Positions 11,939 to 37,682 of a stretch of DNA of 64,000 bases are shown here, in pieces (within the stretch, counting starts at the first letter, position 1; each line of letters starts with the position of its first letter). The position numbers and the translations under genes were made by a program. The DNA is from Primorskyibacter sedentarius (GTDB lineage Bacteria > Pseudomonadota > Alphaproteobacteria > Rhodobacterales > Rhodobacteraceae): the NCBI RefSeq assembly GCF_004342065.1, contig NZ_SLZU01000001.1:248001-312000 (forward strand), written 5' to 3'. Below the pieces are notes generated by a model that saw only the letters and a list, made by a program, of their open reading frames with translations, was not told the DNA's origin and searched no databases.

Positions 11939-13009
11939 TCAGGCCATGCCACCCTTGATCAGCCGGTCCGCCAGTTGCGCAAAGCCCTGCGCGACCGGCC
12001 CGTCACCCGCAGCAATCGGCGTGCCCGCATCCCCTGACAGGCGGGTGTCCAGATCAATCGGAAGGGCCGCCAGCAGCGGGACGCCCAGCTTTTCCGCCTC
12101 GGCCGCCACGCCGCCATGGCCGAACAGATGCGCCTCGGTACCGCAAGTGGGACATATATATGTGGACATATTTTCGATCATTCCGAGGATCGGCACTTTC
12201 AGTGTCTGGAACATGTCGATGGCCTTGCGCGCATCCAGCAGCGCCACATCCTGCGGGGTAGATACGATCAGCGCGCCGGTCAGCTCTGCCTTCTGGCCCA
12301 GCGTCAGTTGCACATCCCCCGTGCCGGGCGGCAGGTCGATGATCAACACATCCAGCTCGCCCCATTCCACCTGGGTCATCATCTGTTGCATGGCCCCCAT
12401 CAGCATCGGCCCGCGCCAGACTGCGGCCTTGCCTTCCTCCAGCATGAACCCGATGGACATGAGCGTGACGCCATGCGCCTGCAGCGGAATGATGGTCTTG
12501 CCATCGGGCGAGGCGGGGCGCTTGTTGATCCCCATCATGCGCGGCTGGCTGGGACCGTATATATCTGCATCCAGCAGCCCCACCCGGCGACCCGCCCGCG
12601 CCAGTGCCACGGCAAGGTTGGCAGAAACGGTGGATTTGCCCACGCCGCCCTTGCCGGACCCGACCACCAGTATACGGTCCACGCCTGCGGGATTCATCGG
12701 CTGGCTTTGCGGTTTGGCATGACCGCCGAATTTCAGGCTGGGCGGGGGCGTCTTCTCTGCCGGGCCATGGGCCGTCAGCGCAACACTGACAGAGCTGACC
12801 CCCGCAATGCCACTGACCGCCTGCTCTACCGCGCGACGCATGGGTTCCATATGGCGGGCGATGTCCGGGCTGGGCGCCTCGATGACGAATCTGACAGCGC
12901 CCCCCTCAATGGTCAGCGCCCGCACCATGTCGCGGGATAATAATGTGCCACCATCGGGAAGCGCGATTTCGCCCAGAATGCGCTCCACTTCGCTGCGAAT
13001 TTCTACCAT
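11939..13009 (-). CDS. apbC: Mrp/ApbC family P-loop ATPase, iron-sulfur cluster carrier
   Basis: Cytoplasmic P-loop ATPase thought to carry [4Fe-4S] clusters to apoproteins. The start MVEIRSEVERIL at 13009 has GGAG about eight bases upstream; the longer frame adds 18 residues without support. An N-terminal MIP18/DUF59 domain (about 1-85) precedes the deviant Walker A GSGKGGVGKSTVSANLA, the Walker B LLDADIYGPSQP and the family's cluster-binding CXXC within TYICPTCGTEAHLFG. About 356 residues, typical. It is divergent from the DUF1127 gene at 13236. Confidence 0.95.
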   Translation of the reverse strand: MVEIRSEVERILGEIALPDGGTLLSRDMVRALTIEGGAVRFVIEAPSPDIARHMEPMRRAVEQAVSGIAGVSSVSVALTAHGPAEKTPPPSLKFGGHAKPQSQPMNPAGVDRILVVGSGKGGVGKSTVSANLAVALARAGRRVGLLDADIYGPSQPRMMGINKRPASPDGKTIIPLQAHGVTLMSIGFMLEEGKAAVWRGPMLMGAMQQMMTQVEWGELDVLIIDLPPGTGDVQLTLGQKAELTGALIVSTPQDVALLDARKAIDMFQTLKVPILGMIENMSTYICPTCGTEAHLFGHGGVAAEAEKLGVPLLAALPIDLDTRLSGDAGTPIAAGDGPVAQGFAQLADRLIKGGMA

Positions 13010-13163
13010 GCCCAATACTCCATCGTGCTTGCCGCAGAAACTGGCAGCTTTCGCCGGGAACACAACCCCAGGCAGTGAAATCAGGAAATATCCCTACTTT
13101 TGATAACCTTACGTCAACTTCTTCCATGCATTTTCTGCATAGCAGCATTGAGGCATTGCCCTA

Positions 13164-13190
13164 TTGTGCAGCTGCAGCATTCGACTACAT
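13164..13190 (+). promoter_or_regulatory. possible heat-shock-sigma-like promoter of the DUF1127/CcsR transcript
   Basis: TTGTGC (13164-13169) and CTACAT (13185-13190) are separated by 15 bases, about 45 bases before the DUF1127 start. In Rhodobacter sphaeroides the homologous transcript is driven by RpoHI/RpoHII, whose promoters have a TTG-type -35 and a C-rich/CTA-type -10. This is a weak match by eye; no other promoter stands out in the 226-base divergent region. Confidence 0.25.
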
Positions 13191-13235
13191 TGAGGTCAAC
13201 GAAACGAACACAAACACTCACAAACGAGCATTCAA

Positions 13236-13451
13236 ATGGCATACGCAACACACACATCGCGCCCTCAGAGCGCATTTGCGGCCCGCATCAACGTCGCACT
13301 GGATAACATCCGCACCCGTCTTGAGCGCCGCCGCGTCTACAAACGCACCCTGGCAGAGCTTCAGTCCCTGTCGAGCCGTGAACTGGCTGATCTGGGCCTG
13401 AACCGCAGCATGCTGACGCGCATCGCATACCAGGCCGCATACGAGGTCTGA
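13236..13451 (+). CDS. ccaF1: 71-residue DUF1127 protein (CcaF1-like) leading the CcsR small-RNA transcript
   Basis: Small basic protein with the DUF1127 core (about residues 32-60): RRVYKRTLAELQSLSSRELADLGLNRS. In R. sphaeroides a 71-residue DUF1127 protein (RSP_6037, CcaF1) is encoded directly upstream of the CcsR1-4 small RNAs, is co-transcribed with them and acts as an RNA-binding factor in their maturation. Here the protein has the same length, and the small-RNA array starts 18 bases after its stop codon. No strong Shine-Dalgarno sequence is visible, only an A-rich leader with CGAGCA. The name follows from length and context. Confidence 0.85.
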   Translation: MAYATHTSRPQSAFAARINVALDNIRTRLERRRVYKRTLAELQSLSSRELADLGLNRSMLTRIAYQAAYEV

Positions 13452-13469
13452 TACCGGAACACAAGGATC

Positions 13470-13542
13470 GAAGGGCTCTCTCCTCCTCCCTGAGCCCTTC
13501 GCTACAGGCGGCGATCTTCATCCTCCTCCCGAAGATCGTCGC
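13470..13542 (+). ncRNA. CcsR-type small RNA 1 (two hairpins with CCUCCUCCC loops)
   Basis: The first hairpin has a perfect 9-bp stem GAAGGGCTC/GAGCCCTTC (13470-13500) enclosing the loop TCTCCTCCTCCCT. The second (13508-13542) has a 12-bp stem GCGGCGATCTTC/GAAGATCGTCGC (one G-U pair) and also a CCTCCTCCC loop. The loop is complementary to the Shine-Dalgarno consensus, as in the R. sphaeroides CcsR RNAs. It differs in stem sequence from the four following copies, so it is the most diverged member. Confidence 0.85.
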
Positions 13543-13570
13543 TCGAAACACCGGGCCCACATGGTCCAAC

Positions 13571-13660
13571 ACGGTTCGGAAGACGCCTCTCCTCCTCCCT
13601 GGCGTCAACCGTGACTAGAGCGGCGGTATCTCTCTCCTCCTCCCTGAGGTGCTGCCGCTC
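13571..13660 (+). ncRNA. CcsR-type small RNA 2
   Basis: Hairpin a (13571-13612) has stems ACGGTT/AACCGT and GACGCC/GGCGTC, separated by an asymmetric bulge, around a CCTCCTCCC loop. Hairpin b (13618-13660) is a 15-bp stem counting G-U pairs, GAGCGGCGGTATCTC with GAGGTGCTGCCGCTC, again around TCTCCTCCTCCCT. It is preceded by a GGGCCCACATGGTCC-type linker. Both arms of ACGGTT/AACCGT are perfect in this copy only. Confidence 0.85.
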
Positions 13661-13689
13661 GCTTCTCATTCGGGCCCAAATGGCCCAGC

Positions 13690-13779
13690 ACAGTTCGGAA
13701 GGCGCCTCTCCTCCTCCCTGGCGTCAACCGTGACTAGAGCGGCAGTATCTCTCTCCTCCTCCCTGAGGTGCTGCCGCTC
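13690..13779 (+). ncRNA. CcsR-type small RNA 3
   Basis: Same two-hairpin plan as the preceding copy, 119 bases downstream. Hairpin a is 13690-13731, with GGCGCC/GGCGTC as inner stem (one G-U pair). Hairpin b is 13737-13779, with stem GAGCGGCAGTATCTC/GAGGTGCTGCCGCTC; the A in GGCAG restores a Watson-Crick pair with the opposite arm. Both loops carry CCTCCTCCC. Confidence 0.85.
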
Positions 13780-13807
13780 ACTTTCATTCGGGCCCAAACG
13801 GCCCAAC

Positions 13808-13897
13808 ACAGTTCGGAAGGCGCCTCTCCTCCTCCCTGGCGTCAACCGTGACTAGAGCGGCGGTATCTCTCTCCTCCTCCCTGAGGTGCTGCCGCTC
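13808..13897 (+). ncRNA. CcsR-type small RNA 4
   Basis: Two-hairpin unit 118 bases after the previous one, nearly identical to copies 2 and 3. Hairpin a spans 13808-13849 and hairpin b 13855-13897, both with CCTCCTCCC loops. The spacer before it (TCGGGCCCAAACGGCCCAAC) can itself form a short GGGCC/GGCCC stem and may mark the processing boundary. Confidence 0.85.
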
Positions 13898-13926
13898 GCT
13901 TCTCATTCGGGCCCAAATGGCCCAAC

Positions 13927-14016
13927 ACAGTTCGGAAGGCGCCTCTCCTCCTCCCTGGCGTCAACCGTGACCAGAGCGGCGATATCTCTCTCCTCCTCCC
14001 TGAGGTATCGCCGCTC
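13927..14016 (+). ncRNA. CcsR-type small RNA 5 (extra copy)
   Basis: Last two-hairpin unit, 119 bases after copy 4. Hairpin a spans 13927-13968. Hairpin b (13974-14016) has the stem GAGCGGCGATATCTC/GAGGTATCGCCGCTC, with changes on both arms relative to copies 2-4 (GCGATA with TATCGC), i.e. compensatory substitutions that keep pairing. Behind it a CG-rich stem GCCGCTCCGGC (about 14048-14058) with TTTCCC may end the transcript. R. sphaeroides is described with four CcsRs, so this is one more. Confidence 0.85.
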
Positions 14017-14146
14017 ATCTTCCTCCCCCAGCCAGCCCGATTTCCCGCCGCTCCGGCTTTCCCTTCCCGTGGCCATTCGCTAGACGGGTGTGCAACAGCC
14101 GACACGCGCGCCCACCGGGGCGGGCCAGCATACGGGAAGACCAGAC

Positions 14147-17100
14147 ATGGCGATGGAAAAGACCTTCGACGCGACCGAGGCGGAACCCCGCCTTTACGAC
14201 GCTTGGGAAACCGCGGGCGCCTTCCGCGCGGGCGCGAATGCCAAGCGGGAAGAGACCTTCAGCATCATGATCCCGCCGCCCAATGTGACCGGGTCACTGC
14301 ATATGGGCCACGCGTTCAACAACACGTTGCAAGATATCCTTGTTCGCTGGCACCGGATGCGGGGTTTTGACACGCTCTGGCAACCCGGACAGGACCATGC
14401 GGGCATCGCCACGCAAATGGTCGTGGAACGCGAACTGGCCAGGAACCAGCAGCCCTCCCGCCGGGATATGGGCCGCGAGGCATTCCTTGAGAAGGTCTGG
14501 GAGTGGAAGCAGCAATCCGGCGGCACCATCATCAATCAGCTTAAACGGCTTGGCGCCTCCTGCGACTGGGATCGCAACGCGTTCACCATGTCCGGCGCGC
14601 CGGGCGCGCCCGAAGGTGAGGATGGCAATTTCCACGATGCCGTCATCAAGGTCTTCGTCGACATGTATGACAAGGGGCTGATCTATCGCGGCAAGCGGCT
14701 GGTCAACTGGGACCCGCATTTCGAGACCGCGATTTCCGACCTTGAAGTCGAGAATATCGACACGCCCGGCCATATGTGGCACTTCAAATACCCGCTCGCG
14801 GGCGGCGAAACCTATGAATATGTCGAGAAGGACGAGGACGGCAACGTCACCCTGCGCGAGACCCGCGACTATATCGCCATCGCCACCACGCGTCCCGAAA
14901 CGATGCTGGGCGACGGCGCGGTTGCCGTCCACCCCTCGGATGAACGCTACAAGCCGATCATCGGCAAGCTCTGCGAAATTCCCGTGGGCCCGAAAGAGCA
15001 TCGTCGCCTTGTTCCGATCATCACCGATGAATATCCCGATCCGCTGTTCGGCTCTGGCGCGGTCAAGATCACCGGCGCGCATGATTTCAACGATTACGGC
15101 GTCGCGATTCGCAATAACATCCCGCTCTATCCTTTGATGGACACGAAGGGCGCGATGCGGGCGGATGGGATGGACTATGCCGAAGCTGCCAAACTGGCCA
15201 CGCAAATCGCCAGCGGAGAGGTCGAAGCCCCGCGGGACACCACACCGATCAACCTTGTCCCGGACGATTATCGCGGGCTGGACCGGTTCGAGGCGCGCGA
15301 CAAGGTTGTGGCCGCGATCAACGCCGAGGGGCTGGCGGTCATGTGCCCCAATCCCGATTACGACCCCGATGCGCAGGCCGAGGATGGCCAGGAGGTCCCG
15401 GATCAAGTCCGGGACGCGATGATCCCCTTTGTCGAGAACAAGCCCATCATGCAGCCCTTTGGCGACCGGTCCAAGGTTGTCATCGAGCCGATGCTGACCG
15501 ATCAGTGGTTTGTCGACACGTCAAAGATCGTTGACCCGGCGCTGGAGGCTGTCCGCAAGGGCAAGGAAAACGGCGGCACCGACATTCTGCCCGAGAGCGA
15601 CCGCAAGGTCTATTTCCACTGGCTGGAGAATATCGAGCCGTGGTGCATCTCGCGCCAGCTTTGGTGGGGCCACCAGATCCCGGTCTGGTACGGGCTGGAC
15701 ATTGAAACAGATGGTTTCCGTGACGACGAAGGCGACGGTGCACTGGATCTGGTCGAGATGGGGCGTCTGTTGATACAACAGCATCTTGCGCCGGGCAGCG
15801 AGCGTATGCATGCCGCGCATGACTTCGACGCGGTCAAGGCGCAGTTTCTTGACGTGCTTTCCGGTCTGCCGCAGCCGCTCAACCACGCGAGTGTCGTCGA
15901 AGTTGCCGATCGTGCCACCGCTGTCCATCAGCTGGCCGCCAGCCTTGCCGAATACGAATCAACGCAAGACCCGACGAAGCTGATCTACCCGGTCTGGCGC
16001 GACCCCGATGTGCTCGACACATGGTTCTCCTCCGGGCTCTGGCCGCTTGGCACGCTGGGCTGGCCCGAAGACACGCCGGAATTGCAGAAATACTTCCCCA
16101 CCTCGGTCCTGATTACCGGGTTTGACATCATCTTCTTCTGGGTCGCCCGGATGATGATGATGCAATACGCGGTTGTCGGCGAAAAACCCTTCGACACGGT
16201 CTATGTCCACGCGCTTGTCCGCGACGAGAAGGGCAAGAAGATGTCCAAGTCGCTGGGCAACGTGATGGACCCGCTGGACCTGATCGACGAATACGGCGCC
16301 GATGCGGTTCGTTTCACCCTGACGGCGATGGCCGCGATGGGCCGCGATCTGAAGCTCTCGACCCAGCGGATTGCGGGCTACCGGAACTTCACCACGAAGC
16401 TTTGGAACGCCTGCCGCTTCGCGGAAATGAACCATGTCTACGATATGTACAATTCGGACGTACAAAAGGCACAAAAGCCCTCAAACTCGCACACTGTGAA
16501 CCGCTGGATCGTGGGCGAAACCGCCAAGGTACGAGAGGCCGTTGACGAAGCGTTGACCAACTTCCGCTTCAACGACGCGGCCAACGCGCTTTATGCCTTT
16601 GTCTGGGGCAAGGTCTGCGACTGGTATGTGGAGTTTTCCAAGCCGCTGTTTGACTCCGAAGACCCTGAAATCGTTGCCGAAACCCGCGCCACCATGGCCT
16701 GGGTATTGGATCAGTGCCTGGTCATGCTGCACCCGATCATGCCCTATATCACCGAAGAGCTGTGGGGCACCCTGACAAAGCGCGACGGTATGCTGGTTCA
16801 TGCCGATTGGCCGGAATGGCAAGCCGCTGAAATAGTTGACAAAAACGCCGACAGAGAGATGAACTGGGTGATCTCTCTCATCGAGGGCATCCGCTCTGCC
16901 CGTGCGCAGATGAACGTGCCCGCAGGTTTGCATGTCACCCTTCTGGCAACCCATCTTGACGAGGCCGGTGAGGCCGCGTGGAGCAATAACGAGGCCTTGA
17001 TCAAGCGCCTCGCCCGCGTCGAGAGCCTGACAAAAGTGGACGCCTTTCCAAAGGGTTGCGCCACGGTCCCGGCCGAGGGCGCCAGCTTTGGCATGCCGCT

Positions 17101-17323
17101 TGCCGACATCATCGACGTGAGCGCAGAAAAGGCACGGCTGGAGAAAACCCTTGGCAAGCTGGCCAAGGAAATCGGCGGCATGAAGGGACGGGTCAACAAC
17201 CCCAAATTCCTTGCCAGCGCCCCCGATGAGGTGGTCGAAGAGACCCGTGCCAACCTCGCCCAGCGTGAAGAGGAAGAAGCGACTCTCAAAGCCGCGCTCG
17301 CCCGGCTCGCCGAGCTGGGCTGA
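14147..17323 (+). CDS. valS: valyl-tRNA synthetase
   Basis: Class I aminoacyl-tRNA synthetase that charges tRNA-Val. The start at 14147 ([20 protein letters not shown]) has GGGAAG about eight bases upstream; the frame is open for 19 more codons without a site. The class I signatures are present: [18 protein letters not shown] near the N-terminus and [11 protein letters not shown] around residue 700. The zinc/editing region, the anticodon-binding domain and a C-terminal coiled coil ([16 protein letters not shown]) follow. About 1058 residues, on the long side, partly because of an additional segment between WYGLDIE and [13 protein letters not shown]. Confidence 0.97.
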
Positions 17324-18931: not shown

Positions 18932-19162
18932 TCAAAGGCCGATGAGGTCACGAAAGACATACCGCGGAATATCATCGCGCCGCAGGCCCATCCGTGCGAG
19001 TTCTTCGTCAGATTTTGCATCGAGTTCCGCCAGTTGCGAAACGCGCGCGCGCTTTTCTATGTAGGAATTGAACCCCTGCCCGGCCGCCGCAAGAAACAGG
19101 TCCAGCGCGCCACGAAGCTGTGGAGACATGAATTTTATTCTGAGAGTCTGCGTCGTCGACAT
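18932..19162 (-). CDS. DUF1127 domain protein, 76 residues
   Basis: Small protein whose C-terminal third carries the DUF1127 pattern SDEELARMGLRRDDIPRYVFRD; the N-terminal half is amphipathic and uncharacterised. AGAGG lies eight bases before the ATG at 19162. In contrast to the DUF1127 gene at 13236, no small-RNA array follows; the next gene downstream is trkH. DUF1127 proteins in alphaproteobacteria are often small RNA-binding or stress-related proteins, but no specific function can be given here. Confidence 0.8.
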   Translation of the reverse strand: MSTTQTLRIKFMSPQLRGALDLFLAAAGQGFNSYIEKRARVSQLAELDAKSDEELARMGLRRDDIPRYVFRDLIGL

Positions 19163-21741: not shown

Positions 21742-21775
21742 AAAAAACCCCAGACGCGGTCAAGCGAAAGGGGGC
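21742..21775 (-). terminator. Rho-independent terminator between the SAM-II aptamer and metZ
   Basis: On the minus strand GCCCCCTTTCGCTTGACC is followed by GCGTCTGGGG and TTTTTT: an outer CCCC/GGGG stem and an inner CGC/GCG stem, with a six-U tail. It lies 14 bases downstream of the riboswitch core and about 35 bases before metZ. This suggests that SAM binding might act through termination, whereas SAM-II elements are commonly thought to act on translation. Confidence 0.7.
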
Positions 21776-21788
21776 TCCTTCATCCTGA

Positions 21789-21840
21789 CCTTTTAGCGGT
21801 TTGTTTAACGTGGCCCGCAATCCGGTAACAAATCGCCACG
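21789..21840 (-). ncRNA. SAM-II riboswitch upstream of metZ
   Basis: The minus strand shows the SAM-II pseudoknot layout. A first stem CGTGGC pairs with GCCACG. Its loop contains GATTTGTTACCGGATTGC, and after the stem GTTAAACAAACCGCTAAAAGG pairs back into the loop; ACCGCTAAAA is the conserved 3' part. Element size (about 52 nt), motif order and association with metZ all match the known alphaproteobacterial class. Confidence 0.92.
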
Positions 21841-21962
21841 CAATCGCGTTTAAGTGCCGTTGCGCAACAGGTCAAGACCGTCACGTAGGCTTAACGCAGG
21901 TTTCACGGATGTGTCGTATGTCTGGGTTAACCGCTGCCCACAAGATGTAGTGGAGACCTGAG

Positions 21963-32413: not shown

Positions 32414-32488
32414 TGGAGCGGGCGAGGCGATTCGAACGCCCGACCCTAACCTTGGCAAGGTTATGCTCTACCCCTGAGCTACGCCCGC
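32414..32488 (-). tRNA. tRNA-Gly (anticodon GCC), copy 2
   Basis: The minus strand reads GCGGGCGTAGCTCAGGGGTA at the 5' end, anticodon loop TTGCCAA, T-arm GGGCGTTCGAATCGCC and acceptor 3' arm CGCCCGC followed by TCCA. Identical in sequence to the copy at 32506-32580, from which it is separated by 17 bases. Confidence 0.97.
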
Positions 32489-32505
32489 CTCCTATATAGT
32501 CCAAC

Positions 32506-32580
32506 TGGAGCGGGCGAGGCGATTCGAACGCCCGACCCTAACCTTGGCAAGGTTATGCTCTACCCCTGAGCTACGCCCGC
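32506..32580 (-). tRNA. tRNA-Gly (anticodon GCC), copy 1
   Basis: The first copy in the direction of transcription, with a complete cloverleaf and encoded CCA. The two copies are identical over 75 bases, so they arose by recent tandem duplication or are kept identical by gene conversion; both probably come from one transcript ending at 32357. Confidence 0.97.
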
Positions 32581-37573: not shown

Positions 37574-37682
37574 TCTGGTTCTGTCCCGTCGTTGAGGTCC
37601 CGTCGATGTGTCGCCCTGACGGGCCACACGGGGCGGCATTGTGCCGCGTTAGAAGTGATCTTTTGCACCTGCAGCATAAGAG

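Follow-up and report, generated by a model that had tools for sequence, protein, structure and literature searches.

The ccaF1-like gene and the array behind it

The DNA analysed here, referred to as the window, is a stretch of 64,000 nucleotides from Primorskyibacter sedentarius. On its plus strand, at 13236-13451, lies a ccaF1-like gene encoding a 71-residue DUF1127 protein (Pfam PF06568, E = 2.8e-12), which is followed on the same strand by an array of five two-hairpin units. The divergent neighbor encodes an Mrp/ApbC-type Fe-S carrier ATPase (11939-13063, minus strand; PF10609, E 1e-95), and the downstream neighbor is valS, the gene for valyl-tRNA synthetase (14147-17323, plus strand; PF00133). 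Both are regarded as context only. In our survey of 80 named CcaF1 homolog loci from Rhodobacterales, some of them cut by contig ends, mrp/apbC was found near ccaF1 in 62, and valS lay inside the available flank in 21. Elsewhere in the window, all on the minus strand, are a 76-residue ORF whose C-terminal part looks DUF1127-like by eye, with no Pfam match at 0.001 (18932-19162), an alphaproteobacterial SAM riboswitch (SAM_alpha, 65.5 bits; 21773-21849), and two tRNA-Gly(gcc) genes in tandem that score equally with Rfam (32414-32580).

The sequence CCTCCTCCC occurs exactly ten times in the window, always on the plus strand and within 13482-14000, whereas shuffled sequences held 0.55 copies on average and never more than 3. 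In minimum-free-energy folds all ten copies are unpaired, each in the loop of a strong hairpin, which confirms the ten hairpins in five units described in the initial annotation. From one loop to the next the spacings are 40, 69, 45, 74, 45, 73, 45, 74 and 45 bases, and the period of 118-119 bases claimed for the last four units is correct. Unit 1 (13466-13544; hairpins 13466-13504 and 13506-13544, loops at 13482 and 13522), which is nearest to the DUF1127 gene, is diverged and stands outside this regular repeat. Hairpins A and B of the other units lie at 13575-13613 and 13620-13658 (unit 2, 13575-13658; fold z -5.6), 13694-13732 and 13739-13777 (unit 3, 13694-13777; z -6.2), 13812-13850 and 13857-13895 (unit 4, 13812-13895; z -5.3), and 13931-13969 and 13976-14014 (unit 5, 13931-14014; z -6.3), all on the plus strand. 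Overall, the fold z of two-hairpin units ranges from about -5 to -6.3, and that of the whole 579-nt array is -13.2. The compensatory change noted earlier in the stem of unit 5 is real, as GAGCGGCGATATCTC pairs with GAGGTATCGCCGCTC (GCGAUA/UAUCGC in the RNA). No intrinsic terminator of the type scanned for was found at 13000-14300.

A further feature, absent from the initial annotation, is a third small hairpin, GGGCC-N5-GG(C/U)CC, that is predicted to fold in the linker of each repeat of units 2-5. On the plus strand it precedes unit 2 at 13553-13567 (GGGCC-CACAU-GGUCC), unit 3 at 13672-13686 (GGGCC-CAAAU-GGCCC), unit 4 at 13790-13804 (GGGCC-CAAAC-GGCCC), and unit 5 at 13909-13923 (GGGCC-CAAAU-GGCCC). 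Among 179 inter-unit linkers of relatives, 84% can form a mini-hairpin of at least 5 bp, compared with 24% of shuffles, and within the array of one relative (locus L032) the linker stems vary with compensation (GAGCC/GGCTC, GGACC/GGTCC and GGGTC/GACCC). Their position suggests that these hairpins are candidate landmarks or signals for processing.

Family membership and turnover of units

A search of Rfam at gathering score returned no match at the array. In a permissive search, CcsR1 (RF02791) matched all five units at 37.8 (unit 1), 26.1, 23.5, 23.0 and 21.2 bits, with a best E of 2.1e-7 and a gathering score of 65.3, and ar14 (RF02344) gave 42.6 (unit 1), 38.5 and 33.5 bits against a gathering score of 58.8. 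In the covariance-model check that had been proposed, every unit is thus recognized with a score below the threshold; because all CcsR1 scores are under gathering, we keep the array out of RF02791 itself. A model made for the purpose, R2, describes a single hairpin and was built from an alignment (A3) of 34 hairpins from other species only; it replaced a model (R1) of a two-hairpin alignment (A2) whose stems were misaligned, with 4 pairs only. R2 returned exactly the ten hairpins of the array and nothing else in the window (E 2.9e-8 to 1.4e-5), with 45.3 and 34.0 bits in unit 1 and 34.3 bits together with 40.0, 41.2, 40.0 and 40.8 bits in units 2, 3, 4 and 5, respectively. The 95.7% pairing in A3 is inflated, since its hairpins were picked for long stems. 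A fairer test of covariation comes from 606 hairpins of relatives taken regardless of stem length, in which uninterrupted stems average 9.4 bp compared with 5.5 bp after shuffling of partners, and stems of at least 7 bp are present in 78% compared with 24%.

The array therefore combines the traits of a CcsR/cuckoo-type locus (CIN1), that is, CCUCCUCCC exposed in hairpin loops with two hairpins per unit, stem variation that compensates around fixed loops, and a short DUF1127 gene directly 5' on the same strand. Together with the Pfam match of this gene, the CcsR1 matches and R2 bear out the annotated CcsR array behind a CcaF1-like gene on the plus strand. We conclude that the locus is CcsR-like (cuckoo RNA, CIN1-type), real, and ordinary in kind and size.

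That its size is ordinary follows from the survey. Loops of CCTCCTCCC are present downstream of the DUF1127 gene in 75 of the 80 named loci, with 1-16 loops each, a count that draft assemblies may misjudge in terms of units, and the ten loops of the window are in the middle of this range. Of 149 sampled genera of the window's family, 107 have two loops 24-54 bases apart, compared with 17 of 289 genomes across the class, a figure that includes the window's own genome and several cases that look chance-like by eye. A congener, the one searched, carries 12 units, repeated every 118 bases and holding 23 exact loops (locus L003, minus strand, 117-1485), in an array with a run of N inside. Five units are thus unexceptional among Rhodobacterales, and the emphasis that the initial annotation placed on one more copy was overstated. 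Its proposal that the array expanded through tandem duplication of a single unit fares better. Identity among repeat units is 91% in the window and 97% in the congener, compared with 83% between the two, the last value being close to the 81% identity of the two ccaF1 genes. As units are more alike within each array than between the congeners, tandem turnover with homogenization of units is real.

The upstream block and its candidate regulators

Upstream of the ccaF1-like gene, on the plus strand, is a conserved block that the initial annotation lacked. At 13127-13150, box 1 (TGCATTTTCTGCAT, of the form TGCA-N6-GCAT, 13127-13140) overlaps box 2 (CTGCATAGCAG, of the form CTGCNNNGCAG, 13135-13145), and CATTG is also present. 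Box 3 and a putative promoter occupy 13164-13190, with a -35 element TTGTGC at 13164-13169, a second TGCA-N6-GCAT at 13167-13180, and a -10-like CTACAT at 13185-13190. In relatives the conserved TTGTGC is likewise overlapped by the second TGCA-N6-GCAT and is followed about 14 nt on by a -10 resembling CCCCATNT, to which the CTACAT of the window is a weaker counterpart; the offset of a -10-like hexamer is almost constant in most loci. The combination of TTGTGC and a CCCCATNT-like hexamer looks like an RpoH-type promoter, and an RpoHI/II promoter has been published for the CcsR locus of Rhodobacter sphaeroides (PMC3320616, PMC10253847).

The block is conserved in most loci. Of the stretches upstream of 82 ccaF1 genes, 58 contain CTGCNNNGCAG and 76 contain TTGTGCA, compared with 0 and 2, respectively, of 77 control stretches. 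TGCA-N6-GCAT occurs at least once in 72 of the 82, compared with 6 of 614 control windows; two copies of it are present in 40 loci, and in all 40 the spacing is 39 or 40 bp. It was considered whether the block might be part of the mrp promoter. This was ruled out, as all 18 loci at which mrp was not found have TTGTGC and TGCA-N6-GCAT, and 16 of them have the form CTGC-N3-GC[A/G]G, so that the block, being kept at such loci, belongs to ccaF1. A separate site in the window (37661-37676, plus strand), TTTTGCACCTGCAGCA, has one mismatch to the pattern of box 3.

Which protein might bind the block is a side question, for which a LysR-type regulator is a tentative candidate. In Sinorhizobium meliloti, LsrB activates NfeR1 through TGCA-N6-GCAT (PMC10746234), and the frequency and doubling of this motif upstream of ccaF1 would fit such a regulator, as would its complete absence from the phasin promoters examined. 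LsrB itself is reported to be confined to Rhizobiales (PMC11975290), so another protein would be needed, and the plasmid copies described below have a degraded box 1. The VtlR box of Brucella and Agrobacterium, GCAT-N3-TG-N3-T (PMC7486931), is not evident in the block by eye.

It would also be tempting to see ccaF1-CcsR as a PhaR operon, in which PHB storage, besides RpoH stress, sets CcsR levels. This is compatible with a CcsR-type function, and we think it rather doubtful. In its support, CTGCNNNGCAG is the PhaR operator of R. sphaeroides (PMC12542648, PMC3206438), the host phaP promoter has two PhaR-type sites whose TTCTGC...GCAGCATT flanks are the same (ATTCTGC-N3-GCAGCATT, 29 bp apart; locus L127, 1916-1955), and a plasmid relative has CTGCACCGCAG at the same place. 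However, nearly all ccaF1 sites have ATA or ATG as their central triplet, while phaP sites are mostly R-N-Y; likewise CTGCATAGCAG fits CTGCNNNGCAG but departs at its center from the R-N-Y of the CTGC-RNY-GCAG phaP operators, which weakens PhaR as the sole account of the block. In addition, the upstream half site ATGCA is conserved as well, and this fits the TGCA-N6-GCAT box of LysR type found in the NfeR1 promoter (PMC10746234).

Parts of the block are seen again at a plasmid-type relative. Another contig of the host (C28) carries a solitary two-loop anti-Shine-Dalgarno RNA with a U-tract (locus L001, 540-690, minus strand), which adjoins a relaxase-like gene and is preceded by CTGCACCGCAG, TTGTGCAGTCGCAGCA and CCCTATCTT, ordered as in the ccaF1 block, most of which is shared. 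Eighteen plasmids of Rhodobacterales, of which 15 are typed as mobilizable, carry related stretches. Several IMG/VR contigs (e.g., L210, L213, L226, L230 and L231) contain near-identical TTGATCGCG...CCTCCTCCC...CGCGATCAA stretches plus a second loop, directly 3' of an apparent gene end; these are possible phage-borne relatives. We tentatively suggest that one conserved bipartite operator might be common to the anti-Shine-Dalgarno arrays of Rhodobacterales and to their relatives on plasmids, which would together constitute a small regulon under PhaR or a LysR-type protein atop RpoH, with unit number as a fast-evolving setting of dose.

Proposed function and comparison with known systems

By analogy with its published relatives, the locus most probably gives rise to a stress-induced co-transcript, from which small RNAs are processed that bind Shine-Dalgarno sites through their loops. 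For the CcsR RNAs of R. sphaeroides, co-transcription, maturation by RNase E and CcaF1, induction by stress, and effects on FlhR and pyruvate dehydrogenase have been described (PMC10253847, PMC8307010, PMC8625941, PMC3320616). In the window, the gene for the DUF1127 RNA-binding protein and the five units probably share a single transcript that starts at one stress promoter, and RNase E and the CcaF1-like protein would then cut the 3' UTR into two-hairpin RNAs of about 80-100 nt. Through their CCUCCUCCC loops these RNAs may pair with the Shine-Dalgarno sequences of target mRNAs, which would block translation or change stability, and extra units, turned over by tandem duplication and homogenization, would supply more of what is nearly the same product. 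Three observations stand against this explanation, namely that the best CcsR1 score is 37.8 bits against 65.3, that no intrinsic terminator was found where R. sphaeroides has one, and that candidate targets differ between the host and the congener. A scan for genes whose Shine-Dalgarno sequence is fully complementary to the loop yielded a SoxYZ-like carrier of quinoprotein dehydrogenases, a pyruvate dehydrogenase E1alpha-like protein, and ABC binding proteins. These are plausible, but the same scan in the congener did not recover them, and we therefore dropped them and make no claim about targets. In 77 of 82 loci, the stretch just 5' of the ccaF1 start matches the loop at 4 bases or fewer; with so little complementarity, ccaF1 may escape its own RNAs.

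The many identical loops could instead act on one transcript as a sponge or decoy, soaking up either a protein (CcaF1, Hfq or other) or free Shine-Dalgarno sites. In its favor, one putative transcript of the congener has as many as 23 loops that are nearly identical, and homogenized units suit a role in dose; the conserved hairpins in the linkers, however, fit separation into units, and published work on R. sphaeroides describes units that are separated by cleavage and target mRNAs, favoring base-pairing RNAs processed by RNase E over a sponge (PMC8307010, PMC8625941). We accordingly consider a sponge improbable. That the repeats are a feature of the DNA or of coding sequence, either a repeat element or an opposite-strand protein, is extremely improbable: six-frame ORFs of 55-87 residues do span the array on both strands, but compensatory stems around an invariant loop point to RNA structure, linker length differs between loci in a way ill-suited to a reading frame, and the loops are counted, and fold, on the strand of the DUF1127 gene.

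The use of the locus is comparative. What remains of interest is the contrast of 5 and 12 homogenized units within one genus, the promoter block, and the linker hairpins. The sister species offer a natural test of unit number as dose; the block is a concrete candidate, open to testing, for an additional control on top of RpoH, and is shared with the plasmid copy; and the linker hairpins are candidates for a processing signal.

Among known systems, the AbcR1/AbcR2 small RNAs of Rhizobiales resemble the array in having loops with a partial anti-Shine-Dalgarno motif and, in some species, control of LysR type, but they differ in structure, come in two copies, and have no DUF1127 gene in the unit. 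The NfeR1/alpha-r14 family of Sinorhizobium (ar14, RF02344) shares the CCUCCUCCC loops and the TGCA-N6-GCAT box in the promoter region; it is, however, one RNA of three hairpins under a sigma70 promoter and no array behind a DUF1127 gene, and the best score of the window (42.6 bits) is below its gathering score of 58.8. A matching arrangement is that of CcsR1-4 and ccaF1 (RSP_6037) in R. sphaeroides (RF02791), where tandem two-hairpin units with CCUCCUCCC loops likewise lie behind a gene for a 71-residue DUF1127 protein and share its strand; the window has five units rather than four, four of the five being nearly identical, its Rfam score is under gathering, and an intrinsic terminator was not detected. 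With the cuckoo RNA family and CIN1 loci of Alphaproteobacteria it has in common anti-Shine-Dalgarno loops, variable stems and adjoining short DUF1127 genes, and it differs from them only in the number of loops and the sequences of the stems.
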